From Exiguobacterium sp. FSL W8-0210 (GTDB taxonomy: Bacteria; Bacillota; Bacilli; Exiguobacteriales; Exiguobacteriaceae): 64,000 nucleotides of DNA. A model generated the notes under the pieces. That model had not been told where the DNA came from, did no database searches, and saw only the letters and a list, made by a program, of their open reading frames with translations. Below, one piece after another: positions 29,595 through 34,458 of the stretch. How positions within the stretch are numbered: the stretch's first letter is position 1; each line of letters begins with the position of its first letter. The translations under genes and the position numbers were made by a program. The stretch is taken from contig NZ_JBBOUK010000001.1 in assembly GCF_038006045.1 (NCBI RefSeq), positions 785,001-849,000 of the forward strand, given 5' to 3'.

Positions 29595-29674
29595 AAAGAA
29601 TGTAGAGTATAGATGAAACGCTTACATGTTCAGATTGACTGACATGCGTAGCATAAAAAAGGAGCGACTTGACG

Positions 29675-31975
29675 ATGAAACGACTTTTTGAGGTCAATGA
29701 GTGGAAAATTACAGAGCTTGGTTTTCATCCAGAAGATAATCGATTGGCAGAATCGATGACATCGATCGGAAACGGTCATATGGGAATGCGCGGAACGTTT
29801 GAAGAAGAATACACAGGCGACACGCATCAAGGCATGTATGTCGCAGGTGTTTATTATCCGGATAAGACACGTGTCGGCTGGTGGAAAAACGGTTATCCGG
29901 AGTACTTCGCGAAAGTACTCAATGCTGTCAACATCATGGGTTTGAAAGTATCTGTCAACGGAAAAACTGTTGATTTGAATACGTGGGAAGTCATCGACTT
30001 CAAACGTGAACTTGATATGCAACATGGTGTGTTGACGCGGGCGATGTTGTTGAAGCATGGAGAAGAAGAGATAAAAGTCGAATCCAAGCGTTTCTTCTCG
30101 ATCGTCGATAAAGAAATTGCTGCCTTGCAATATACGGTAACACCTGTCAATTTCGAAGCAGAGGTCATCATTGAATCATATCTCGATGCGGATGTTGAGA
30201 ATGAAGACTCAAACTATGATGAGAAGTTCTGGCTTCCCGTTGAACACGGAATTGAAGAACGGTTTGGTTATGTCACATCAAAAACGAAAAAGCTCGATTG
30301 GCATGTGACAGCAGCGATGATCACGGACGTCGAAGGCGCACGGTGTGAGGTCGTCGATGGCAATACGCAGTACGTCGCGAATCGTTTCACGAAACAAGCC
30401 GCAGTAGGTGAGGGTGTCACTGTCGAGAAATTCGTTGCGCTCGTAACGAATCGCGATCATGAAATCGATGCGTTACTGGAGCAAGCGATGAAACGGGTTC
30501 ACGTCGCATTCGAATCAGGCTTTGAACCATTGCTTGCGACACATGAAGCAGCGTGGTTGCACCACTGGGAAGAAGCGGATGTGAAGATTGAAGGTGATGT
30601 CGAGGCACAGCAAGGGATTCGTTTCAACATCTTCCATATGTTCCAGACCTACACAGGTGAAGACTCACGCCTGAACATCGGACCAAAAGGCTTCACGGGC
30701 GAGAAGTATGGTGGTGCGACGTATTGGGATACAGAAGCGTACTGCTTGAACTTTTACCTTGCGACGTCGAAACCGGAAGTGGCTTGGAATTTACTCAAGT
30801 ATCGCCACAATCAATTACCGCAAGCAAAAGAAAATGCGGATAAGAATGTTGGGATGAAGGGTGCGCTTTATCCGATGGTGACGATGAACGGAGAAGAGTG
30901 CCACAACGAGTGGGAAATTACACATGAAGAAATTCACCGGAACGGCGCGATTGCGCATGCGATTTATAATTACACGAACTACACGGGGGACACATCGTAT
31001 CTCGGACAATACGGATTTGAAGTGTTAGTCGAGATTGCTCGTTATTGGGCAAGCCGTGTCAATTATGTGGCGCATAAGGATGTCTATATGATTCTTGGGG
31101 TGACGGGACCAAATGAATACGAGAACAACGTCAACAACAACTGGTATACGAATTTGATCGCAGCATGGTGTCTCGAATATACGCAGACCGTTCACCGTCA
31201 TTTGGCACAAGAAGAACCAGAACGTTTGCAAGAACTCATGCATCAATTAGCGTTGACGGATGAGGAACTGGCGAAGTGGGCAGATATCGACGCGAAGATG
31301 TATTATCCAAAAGATGAAGCAGCTCCTGGTATCTTCATGCAACAGGATGGCTTCATGGATAAGGAACAAATCCTGGTCGCTGAACTCGATCCAAAACATC
31401 TTCCGCTGAACCAGAATTGGTCTTGGGACCGGATCCTTCGCTCTGTCTTCATCAAACAGGCAGATGTCCTGCAAGGTCTCTACTTCTTGACGGATCGCTT
31501 CAGTCTAGAAGAGAAGAAAGCGAACTTCGATTTCTATGAACCACGTACGGTTCACGAATCATCATTATCTCCGTGTATCTACTCGATCATTGCAGCGGAA
31601 GTCGGCTATGAGGAAAAAGCGGTCGAACTGTACCAACGTTCGGCACGACTTGACCTTGATAACTACAACAATGATACGGAAGACGGATTACACATCACGT
31701 CGATGGTTGGATCTTGGATGTCGATCGTCCACGGGTTCGCCGGATTACGGGTGGCGAACGATACGTTGTCCTTTAAGCCGATGTTGCCAAAAGGCTGGAC
31801 GAGCTATGCGTTCCGGATGCAGTGGCGCGGTCATCATATCCATGTCCATGTTCAGCCAAACGCCGTCGAAATCACTCAGACGGAAGGCGAAGCATTCAGC
31901 TTAAACGTTCATGGAACGACTGTAGAAGTTCCGGCAGGAGGAAAGATTACGGTGCCTGCTTCGATGACAGTATAA
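29675..31975 (+). CDS. mapP: Maltose phosphorylase (GH65)
   Basis: A 766-residue cytoplasmic phosphorylase converting maltose and phosphate to glucose and beta-glucose 1-phosphate. It has the family N-terminal block ESMTSIGNGHMGMRGTFEE, the WWKNGYPEYFAKV segment, and the catalytic acid E481 in VTGPNEYENNVNNN. Size and motifs fit maltose rather than trehalose or kojibiose phosphorylases, but specificity is inferred. The ATG is preceded by AAAGGAG. The usual partner beta-phosphoglucomutase is not next to it; an IS element follows instead. Confidence 0.88.
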   Translation: MKRLFEVNEWKITELGFHPEDNRLAESMTSIGNGHMGMRGTFEEEYTGDTHQGMYVAGVYYPDKTRVGWWKNGYPEYFAKVLNAVNIMGLKVSVNGKTVDLNTWEVIDFKRELDMQHGVLTRAMLLKHGEEEIKVESKRFFSIVDKEIAALQYTVTPVNFEAEVIIESYLDADVENEDSNYDEKFWLPVEHGIEERFGYVTSKTKKLDWHVTAAMITDVEGARCEVVDGNTQYVANRFTKQAAVGEGVTVEKFVALVTNRDHEIDALLEQAMKRVHVAFESGFEPLLATHEAAWLHHWEEADVKIEGDVEAQQGIRFNIFHMFQTYTGEDSRLNIGPKGFTGEKYGGATYWDTEAYCLNFYLATSKPEVAWNLLKYRHNQLPQAKENADKNVGMKGALYPMVTMNGEECHNEWEITHEEIHRNGAIAHAIYNYTNYTGDTSYLGQYGFEVLVEIARYWASRVNYVAHKDVYMILGVTGPNEYENNVNNNWYTNLIAAWCLEYTQTVHRHLAQEEPERLQELMHQLALTDEELAKWADIDAKMYYPKDEAAPGIFMQQDGFMDKEQILVAELDPKHLPLNQNWSWDRILRSVFIKQADVLQGLYFLTDRFSLEEKKANFDFYEPRTVHESSLSPCIYSIIAAEVGYEEKAVELYQRSARLDLDNYNNDTEDGLHITSMVGSWMSIVHGFAGLRVANDTLSFKPMLPKGWTSYAFRMQWRGHHIHVHVQPNAVEITQTEGEAFSLNVHGTTVEVPAGGKITVPASMTV

Positions 31976-31983
31976 ATACGATG

Positions 31984-31995
31984 AAAAAGAACCGA
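31984..31995 (+). terminator. Left half of mapP terminator, split by the IS element
   Basis: AAAAAGAACCGA here is the exact complement of TCGGTTCTTTTT at 33446-33457, which runs into further T. Removing 32001-33440 and one CCA copy rejoins a 12-bp stem with a 7-base loop. Confidence 0.8.
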
Positions 31996-32037
31996 TGCCA
32001 TGAACTGAACCAAAAAAGTTAGACAATAAATAATTTG

Positions 32038-32868
32038 TCAGGCGACCTTGAGGACCTGAGTCCGGTATTCAACCGGGCTCAGGTTTTTTAGTCGTCTCTT
32101 GATACGACGATGGTTATAGTACTCGATGTAACGCTCGAGCTCACATTTGAAGTGGTCCATGTCATCGAACTCCTTGAGATACAGGAGCTCTGACTTGAGC
32201 ACGGCGAAGAAGCTTTCGATGGCTGCGTTGTCGAGACAGTTGCCCTTACGGGACATGCTTTGCGTAATGCCGTGCTCGTGGAGCGTACCAGTGAACGCTC
32301 TGTATTGATAATGCCACCCTTGATCGGAATGAAGGATTGGGCGCGCCTCTCCGTCGAGCTTCCCGATTGCCTGATCTAACATTTCGCCAACGAATCGATA
32401 TGTAGGACGGTCCGATAGGGTATAGGCGATGATCTCACGGTTTCCCAAGTCCATCATCGGAGAAAGGTAGAGCTTCTCTCCGAACAGGTGAAATTCAGTG
32501 ACGTCAGTCACCCATTTCTGGTTCAGACCGGTGGCCTTGAAGTCACGTTGAAGAAGATTCGGTGCGACCTTTCCGACCCGTCCTTTATAGGAGCGGTATC
32601 GCTTCATGCGGACGAGACATTTGAGACCGAGTTCGTTCATGAGACGGCGCACGGTCTTCGGATCGTGCCGGAAGCCCTGGCGTTCGAGAAGTGCGTGGAT
32701 GCGACGATAGCCACATCGTCCTTCGTGTTCGTGGAAGAGGGTATGGATGGCCGCCTTCACTTCCGCATACTTGTCTTCGCCCGTCAGGCGCGTCCGCCAA
32801 TAGTAATAAACGCTTCGTGCCATACCGAGCACGCGGAGGAGTCCCGGAACGGGATAGATTGATCGCAA
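32038..32868 (-). CDS. IS3-family transposase OrfB (DDE catalytic part)
   Basis: The integrase-core half of the transposase. The catalytic triad is visible: first Asp in [13 protein letters not shown], second Asp in [11 protein letters not shown], Glu in [14 protein letters not shown]. An N-terminal HTH_21-type stretch ([21 protein letters not shown]) precedes it. It is read mainly as an OrfAB fusion; the reading frame is open back to the slippery heptamer at 32934-32940, and the coordinate given is only the first possible independent start (TTG). Confidence 0.92.
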
Positions 32869-32876
32869 TTCATCGA

Positions 32877-33386
32877 TTACTTGTGCCTTGATCCGGTTCG
32901 TCGCGCATTCTCTTCTTGAACCAAGGCTTTCAATTTTTTTAACGCAGCGTTCTCCATCTCGAGATACTCGATCCGCTCTTTGAGCTTCTCGACTTCTGTC
33001 ATCTCTTCAAATTCCTTCTTCTTGCGTCTCGCCATCGGGGCACGTCCTTTCGGTCTGGCGACCAGACCTGCGGTCCCTTCCCGATCATACGTCGATCGCC
33101 ATCTCGAGATCATCCCCGGGGAGGAAATTCGGTATTTTACGGCCGTCTCTCTATTGGACAGCTTATTGGTCGCCATGTCGTTTAATACCTCCAGTTTAAA
33201 TGCCAGCGAGTGTGTTGTATAGGAAGGATCGAAGATCGTTTCCCCCCAACGCTCATAGAGACGTGACCACTCACGGACCAGGTTATGCGCTATCCCGAAT
33301 TCTTTCGCCACACCTCGGTATCCGTCTCGTCCTGTTAGATAACGCTCAGCGACTTGGACTTTAAACGCCTTTGTATATTTGACCAT
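32877..33386 (-). CDS. IS3-family transposase OrfA (DNA-binding part)
   Basis: A 169-residue protein with two helix-turn-helix regions (about 10-50 and 65-110) and a C-terminal leucine-zipper-like helix ([19 protein letters not shown]). It recognises the element ends. The start is the ATG at 33386 (MVKYTKAF); an upstream ATG would lie in the terminal repeat. Confidence 0.9.
32934..32940 (-). other. Probable -1 ribosomal frameshift heptamer of the IS
   Basis: A run of seven A on -, in the A_AAA_AAA phase of orfA. Slipping back one base leads into [10 protein letters not shown] and on without a stop into OrfB, as in other IS3-family elements. Confidence 0.75.
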
Positions 33387-33445
33387 AAAAAACACCCCAT
33401 AAAAGTTGGATTTTATGTCCAACTTTTATGGGGCAGTTCACCAAG

Positions 33446-33459
33446 TCGGTTCTTTTTTT
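33446..33459 (+). terminator. Right half of mapP terminator, beyond the IS
   Basis: TCGGTTC followed by seven T; complements 31984-31995 on the other side of the insertion sequence. Confidence 0.8.
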
Positions 33460-33606
33460 GTGTAACACGAATTAGAGGACACCTTTGTCACAAATGAAAA
33501 CGCCATCATGAAAAAGAACATCAATCTTTGGAAATCTTGACTATCCGGCGACATTTGAATGTGCTAAAGTGTTTCAAGATAGTTATGAATGAGAGGAGAA
33601 CGGCGT

Positions 33607-34458
33607 GTGACAGCAGTAGTAAAGGAAAGTATGTTAAAAGTGATTGTGGCTACGATTGGAGGATTCGTCATTGCCGTTGCCATGAACTGGTTTTTGATTC
33701 CAAGTGGTGTTTATTCGACTGGATTTACAGGACTTGCCCAAATCTTGACGCAAGTCCTTCAAAATACAGCATTTGCGTTTGGTGAAAACGTTTGGTTCTT
33801 AGCGCTGAACATCCCTTTGATCGTGCTTGCATGGATCATGTTAGGTCGGAGTTTTACAATCGTCACGTTGATTTCGGTTCTGGCAACGACGATTTTTATT
33901 GGCCTTATTCCTCAATATGCTGTCATACCAGGTGATCAGACACTGAATGCAGTGTTTGGAGGGGTCTTGCTTGCGATTGGTACCGGTATCACGATTAAAT
34001 TCGGTGCTTCGACGGGTGGGTTTGATATCGTTGCCCTCATCTTTGCCCGTTTTTCCGATCGCAGTGTCGGCTTATATCTGTTCGTCTTGAACTTTTTGAT
34101 CGCACTATTGGCAGGTGCCTTGTTCGGCTGGTCGACTGCCTTATATACGATCGTCTTCATCTACGTGACTTCTAAGGTCGTCGATGAGATTCATACAAGT
34201 AACCAACGCTTGACGATTTTTATCGTCACGAATCATGCGGATGACATCACGACGGCTCTGCATCAGCACATCATTCGAGGCATCACGCAGATTCCTTCGA
34301 TCGGTACGTATTCACGAGCTGAGAAAGCGACGTTGATGATGGTCATTGAGCGTCACGAATTGCGGGATATCGAACGGATTTGTCGGGAAGCGGACGAGAC
34401 GGTCTTCATCAACGTCGTCGCGACAGACTCGGTTGTCGGATACTTCCGAAAAGGATAA
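33607..34458 (+). CDS. YitT-family membrane protein with DUF2179 domain
   Basis: A 283-residue protein. Five or six membrane segments (about 8-165, with GGFVIAVAMNWFLIPSGVYS and KFGASTGGFDIVA) are followed by a cytoplasmic DUF2179 domain (about 200-283, ending VVATDSVVGYFRKG). The family is widespread in Firmicutes with no settled function. The GTG start is chosen because AGGAG lies 8 bases upstream. A possible promoter is TTGAAT-N17-GATAGT at 33555-33583. Confidence 0.82.
   Translation: MTAVVKESMLKVIVATIGGFVIAVAMNWFLIPSGVYSTGFTGLAQILTQVLQNTAFAFGENVWFLALNIPLIVLAWIMLGRSFTIVTLISVLATTIFIGLIPQYAVIPGDQTLNAVFGGVLLAIGTGITIKFGASTGGFDIVALIFARFSDRSVGLYLFVLNFLIALLAGALFGWSTALYTIVFIYVTSKVVDEIHTSNQRLTIFIVTNHADDITTALHQHIIRGITQIPSIGTYSRAEKATLMMVIERHELRDIERICREADETVFINVVATDSVVGYFRKG

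Follow-up and report, generated by a model that had tools for sequence, protein, structure and literature searches.

Insertion of an IS150-subgroup element and its relatives at the axis of terminator hairpins

Group IIC introns insert adjoining terminator hairpins; they are retroelements and their mechanism differs from that of the element described here. IS1272 and TnSha1 belong to the IS1182 family, whose transposase is unrelated to the IS3-type. Their target hairpins are without sequence specificity and several of these have been identified as terminators by RNA-seq, according to parts of two reports (PMC4923244, PMC5678879). These elements generate no target site duplication (TSD) and replace or delete part of the hairpin, whereas the present element shows a clean loop insertion with a TSD. 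Within the IS3 family, IS1397, ISKpn1 and ISPsy8 are described as inserting in REP/PU palindromes; for ISPsy8 the insertion point is the symmetry axis of a REP hairpin, with a 3-bp repeat (PMC1525189, in part). The targets of these three elements are REP-type repeats, whereas those of the present element are free in sequence, have the form of intrinsic terminators and are spread widely over phyla. In IS200, one stem-loop ends impinging transcripts and another hides the ribosome site (PMC3196728, in part). This element belongs to a different family and its stem-loops have no link to the target site. Escherichia coli IS150 resembles the present element in its OrfB (55% identical), its two open reading frames, its TG...CA ends, its 3-bp TSD and its length of about 1.44 kb, and differs from it in that 0/16 loci were found in a hairpin loop and that no terminator was found at either of its ends.

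Precedents are thus known for IS3 elements in REP palindromes and for IS1272 in terminators, and what appears to be new is the sequence-independent targeting of terminator loops, across several phyla, by a clade of IS150-type elements that also have terminators at their edges. No report of terminator-loop targeting by IS150-type elements was found in the literature searched; most subscription papers and the ISfinder and TnPedia texts were outside its scope, and prior notice is possible.

The element and its empty sites

The window, by which we mean the whole stretch of 64,000 nucleotides that was analysed, contains an insertion sequence located between a GH65 family gene and a gene for a YitT-type membrane protein (Table 1). 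The original prediction, made from the letters of the window, had placed an IS3-type element with a CCA duplication in the loop of a terminator, and element, coordinates, arms and duplication were all found to be exact to the base. When the flanks were rejoined, the predicted 12-bp stem with loop TGCCAAG was reproduced, with one part of the loop (TGCCA, 31996-32000) to the left of the element and the other (AG, 33444-33445) to the right. The host hairpin begins 9 nt past the GH65 gene, which had been called a maltose phosphorylase gene. The gene models (Pfam PF03632, PF03636 and PF03633; NCBIfam PRK13807 family) bear out the GH65 family and make this enzyme identity plausible, and fall short of proving it.

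Table 1. Coordinates of the element, its parts and its neighbours in the window.
Feature	Position	Strand	Remarks
GH65 family gene (maltose-phosphorylase-type), owner of the split terminator	29669..31975	+	Pfam and NCBIfam
Split host terminator, 5' arm	31984..31995	+	AAAAAGAACCGA
Target duplication CCA, left	31998..32000	.	CCA single in empty site L168
Insertion sequence, IS3 family (IS150 subgroup by sequence), 1440 bp	32001..33440	-	ends TGAACTG...CAGTTCA
orfB (rve, rve_2, HTH_21; DDE-type integrase core)	32038..32868	-	frame open further upstream past the A7 run
Putative element-borne antisense terminator in the 3' end of orfB, facing the GH65 gene	32055..32089	+	CCTGAGTCCGG-TATTCAA-CCGGGCTCAGG-T6
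orfA from ATG (HTH, HTH_28/HTH_Tnp_1)	32877..33386	-	
Putative element-borne left-end terminator	33387..33435	-	hairpin of IRL and an inverted copy of it; T6 follows, adjoining the ATG of orfA
Target duplication CCA, right	33441..33443	.	CCA single at empty sites
Split host terminator, 3' arm and T run	33446..33459	+	arm TCGGTTCTTTTT 33446-33457, T run 33453-33459
YitT-type membrane protein gene, downstream of the element	33589..34458	+	

The frames of orfA and orfB overlap, with a run of seven A within the overlap, and OrfB is probably made by frameshifting. OrfB scored 328 bits against the IS3-family model NF033516 (cut-off 160), and its nearest named relatives among the 60 plasmid records listed were ISKpn8 and IS150, at 55% identity. 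Placement in the IS150 subgroup was also consistent with the tree described below, and the element has the IS3/IS150 traits of terminal inverted repeats ending in TG...CA, which are imperfect and start with TGAACTG, and of a TSD in the range of 3-4 bp. Judged by these sequence characters, the element is a member of the IS3 family, IS150 subgroup. A scan for sigma-70 promoters gave a single promoter-like site, outside the element.

The rejoined hairpin had a p-value of 0.002 when compared with 40,000 random positions in the window, and 0.46% of the window positions are at most 4 nt away from the centre of symmetry of a terminator-like hairpin; chance placement at this site was rejected on the basis of these two figures. 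The two arms of the host terminator are now 1440 bp apart and neither folds alone, so that the GH65 gene has lost its own terminator, as had been proposed.

The site was compared between the 3.35-Mb genome of the window and 18 sister genomes of the genus, and the end of the GH65 gene was located in 18 of these 19 genomes. Two close sister genomes (L167 and L168) had the orthologous site without the element, with the hairpin and one CCA; the hairpin in L168 was identical to the rejoined one and that in L167 had one mismatch in an arm. The single CCA and the hairpin in these two sister species prove both the CCA duplication and the existence of the hairpin before insertion, which was the expectation for strains lacking the element. 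The same terminator with different loops was found at L169-L173, and the farther sister genomes had other sequences at the end of the gene, many with a terminator-like hairpin. For a second insertion site of the element (L003), L205 and others keep an intact hairpin with a single CAAG. The empty site therefore equals the flanks with one copy of the TSD, which is not the pattern left by IS1272-type elements.

Copies in the genus and relatives in other phyla

The genome holds five identical full copies of the 1440-bp element, which suggests that the element was recently active. All five split terminator hairpins; once rejoined, the sites gave hairpins of terminator type (12 to 18 bp, stem scores 14-21). 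The axis was 1.5 nt or less from the centre of the TSD in four of them, and the fifth was off axis by 6 nt, in the 3' arm. The copies in sister species were 89-95% identical. Within the genus, 10 of the 16 listed copies, the five above included, passed the narrow test at p<0.01, and the off-axis copy makes 11; L051 and L060 share one site, and the truncated copies L061 and L064 were left out. Among the others, L055 (p=0.04) and L058 (p=0.056) were weaker, and neither the shared site L051/L060 nor L052 had a significant hairpin score in the narrow test. Three more copies, split over contig ends of the sister genome G006 and paired by eye, also rebuild hairpins; these contig-end copies and the decayed copy L068 were judged by eye only. 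The assembly of G006 breaks at copies of the element in contigs C3, C4, C5, C6, C9 and C10, and its contig ends can be matched via TSD and hairpin arms.

Hairpins were scored on stems without gaps, against empirical null distributions. Counting junction-spanning pairs in the RNA minimum free energy fold had been tried as a statistic and was dropped, as 44% of random positions passed (at least 7 pairs). A site passed when it reached the 99th percentile of scores at random positions of its own flanks; a wide test admitted off-axis positions and larger loops. A first sample of relatives comprised 80 loci with an OrfB identity of 53-95% from Bacillota, Pseudomonadota, Bacteroidota and others, of which 69 with enough flank were examined. 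Inverted repeats and TSD were the sole criteria for placing the ends and left 42 usable loci, among them L070, a duplicate of the genus copy L054. The narrow test was passed by 29 of these 42 sites and the narrow or the wide test by 32 (25/41 in an earlier version). A second sample comprised 60 loci from other Bacilli with an identity of 44-67%, of which 50 were usable under a relaxed end rule (inverted repeat score 12 and TSD, GGT...ACC ends also admitted); here 25/50 passed the narrow test and 35/50 either test. With the stricter end rule first applied to this second sample (inverted repeat score 17) the result was 14/32; this rule discarded ends of correct look, and both results are reported. 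In the two samples together 67 of 92 sites were in hairpins, compared to about 2 expected (about 2%). The targeting recurs across phyla. The loci L328-L337 form a related subgroup with ends that seem to be GGT(A/G)...ACC, outside the usual TG...CA.

Both the narrow and the wide test were failed by 10/42 and 15/50 usable sites, respectively. Inspection by eye showed a bulged or off-axis terminator at several of these 25 misses (e.g. L076, L077, L316, L337 and L361), no hairpin arms were seen even by eye at L091, L094, L136 and L328, and the four loci L324-L327 of one genome (G226) have their sites in a different kind of sequence. In a tree of the elements the targeting trait was found in all main branches, and no single origin was obtained, the 10 changes being no improvement on shuffled labels; one reason is the scatter of misses among identical elements. 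Two of the labels in this tree, B_L010 and E_L244, were assigned the trait on the basis of some of their copies.

Two further IS3 elements were scored in the same way. Of 10 copies of type B (1677 bp, ends TGATATGCTCCCC / TGAACTGCTCCC, 89-100% identical; L009-L016 in the genome of the window, L036 and L048 in a sister species), 6 were in terminator hairpins. So were, by score, 2 of 4 copies of type E (1291 bp, ends TGGGCTAACC; L243-L246), and the remaining two looked off axis. For IS150 in E. coli, examined with one ISKpn8 at 16 loci (some sites shared), none had p<0.05, 0 of 10 loci with a TSD were in a hairpin by the wide test, and a search for inverted repeats with long loops at the IS150 sites gave nothing significant. 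This indicated that the habit is common to several IS3 lineages and not to IS150, and given that IS150 belongs to the same subgroup, it is not a trait of all its members. Of the 15 IS150 loci L150 and L152-L165, 11 adjoin type I toxin genes (hok/mok/ibs), and GAGGC is often found a few bases to the right of the insertion. The other copies of the element were not at random sites, and the suggestion that hairpin DNA is the target was strongly supported, also for most relatives across a wide clade.

Anatomy of the target

For the anatomy of the target 55 sites were pooled, of which 42 had a TSD, and a hairpin was present at 33 of these 42. The TSD was 3 bp at 22 sites, 4 bp at 18 and 5 bp at two, with 36 different sequences among the 42 and no consensus; the targets vary by site and are not one repeated palindrome sequence of the REP type. 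At 27 of the 33 hairpin sites the axis was at most 1 nt from the centre of the TSD, and the commonest loop length was 4 (13 sites).

A gene 3' end faced the site within 120 nt in 40 of 45 cases (five own copies and 40 relatives). Such a distribution could result from random insertion if selection kept only the harmless intergenic copies, and terminators are harmless places. Selection cannot, however, set an element within 1 nt of the centre of a palindrome, and other elements in the same genome, which are under the same selection, are found elsewhere. Among 19 copies of the elements C and D (L223-L241), which we take from their ends and domains to be IS1182-like, two were in a scored hairpin, as was one of 8 examined copies, out of more, of element F, presumably IS30-like on the same grounds. 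We regard survivorship as extremely unlikely. The IS1182-like copies have ends GAGGCTGGGACATAA and no TSD, and their flanks often finish in an A run / T run. The IS30-like copies (L265-L272), which have a 4-bp TSD, tend to be flanked by a T run on one side and an A run on the other, the reverse of the order in a terminator.

The targets had the anatomy of terminators. Of 33 targets, 28 had at least 4 consecutive A or T adjoining the stem, which was true of 48 among 271 strong hairpins of these flanks (p=1.6e-14), and the runs were on both sides in 17 of these 28 targets, compared to 12/48 hairpins of the same loci (p=0.003) and 2/32 hairpins of the window (p=6e-6). The excess of two-sided runs indicated that the whole palindrome matters. 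Of the 33 sites, 12 had the longer run on the A side, 12 had it on the T side and 9 had runs of equal length, which indicated that there is no transcription polarity. These observations bear on the possibility that what attracts the transposase is not palindromic DNA but transcription at terminators, through paused or terminating RNA polymerase, R-loops or supercoils. The terminator anatomy and the location at gene 3' ends agree with such transcription-coupled targeting, whereas the coincidence of the insertion axis with the palindrome centre, the absence of polarity and the over-representation of palindromes with two-sided runs argue against it, and we consider it possible, if rather unlikely. 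We infer that the palindrome is recognised as a DNA structure, such as a cruciform or a sharply bent axis.

The targets also have a strong and symmetric composition profile (A tract, C-rich, AT, G-rich, T tract), and the transposase might read this profile indirectly with no need for the arms to pair. When positions were matched for composition at three cut-offs, hairpins were found at 13/163, 12/53 and 5/10 flank positions and at 23/27, 18/18 and 9/9 sites, respectively; with looser matching the values were 28/1510 flank positions and 27/36 sites. Hairpins at the targets are thus in excess over base composition. Given that at an equal score (the second cut-off, set at the median composition score of the sites) a hairpin was present in 12/53 flank positions and in 18/18 sites, readout of composition is very unlikely to be the explanation.

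Predicted terminators carried by the element

Both ends of the element contain a predicted terminator. The left-end hairpin has 18 pairs (-28.7 kcal/mol, z -7.7) and the antisense hairpin near the right end a folding energy of -27.5 kcal/mol (z -6.4), and for each of them 0 of 200 shuffles were as good. The antisense hairpin was missing from a generic terminator scan, probably because pairing of its stem can extend into the T run. The first terminator finder missed stems of this kind and a corrected finder was used for the counts. Among 44 elements (41 relatives, the window element, type B and IS150) a terminator was detected at the left end in 27 and antisense at the right end in 12, with both in 6, so that most elements have at least one edge terminator and a minority has both. 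Interior matches numbered only 5 across the 44 elements, one of them a duplicated left end. Neither IS150 nor type B gave a match for the right-end antisense terminator, and in IS150 none was found at the left end either.

It had been suggested that transcripts of the GH65 gene, deprived of its terminator, may run into the element antisense to the transposase gene. The separation of the two arms, neither of which folds alone, would permit this. The antisense hairpin with its T6 faces such transcripts, however, and read-through should therefore stop about 90 nt inside the element, so that this part of the original prediction was not upheld and transcription across the whole element is unlikely. 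The left-end hairpin covers a GGGGTG motif resembling a ribosome site before orfA. By analogy with IS200, this hairpin may both terminate transcripts from outside and hide the start region, so that such transcripts would also be translated poorly.

Taken together, we consider it very likely that the IS150-subgroup transposase selects palindromes with the anatomy of terminators and inserts at their axis, and that the element then replaces the terminator that is lost. The target would be a palindrome consisting of an A tract, a GC-rich arm, a short loop, a second GC-rich arm and a T tract, in which the complementarity of the arms decides and the sequences of loop and TSD are irrelevant. The transposase complex would capture a palindrome with pairable arms and join the element ends at its axis, usually in the loop, with a 3-4 bp duplication, and the host terminator would be abolished as its arms are forced apart. 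The hairpin and T run at the left end would stop transcripts entering toward the transposase gene, and in the window element and some others the antisense terminator at the right end would act as a second replacement. Both neighbouring genes and their 3' ends would be left intact in this exchange of terminator for terminator, a safe haven whose insulation is predicted from sequence only. Palindromes are present at so many gene ends that they would offer many harmless landing sites. Whether this extends to a clade of IS3/IS150-type elements across phyla, which would use terminators as universal, sequence-independent safe havens and swap in their own edge terminators, making the insertion transcriptionally neutral and shielding the transposase from outside promoters, is a matter on which we lean neither way.

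The axis of terminator hairpins provides a simple landing rule for a very common type of insertion sequence and accounts for multiplication of the element without gene disruption. It also offers a route to how a DDE transposase reads the shape of DNA rather than its sequence. Gene ends located beside such copies should be annotated as terminator exchanges and not as losses, and the same preference could be used to steer insertion tools toward gene 3' ends.
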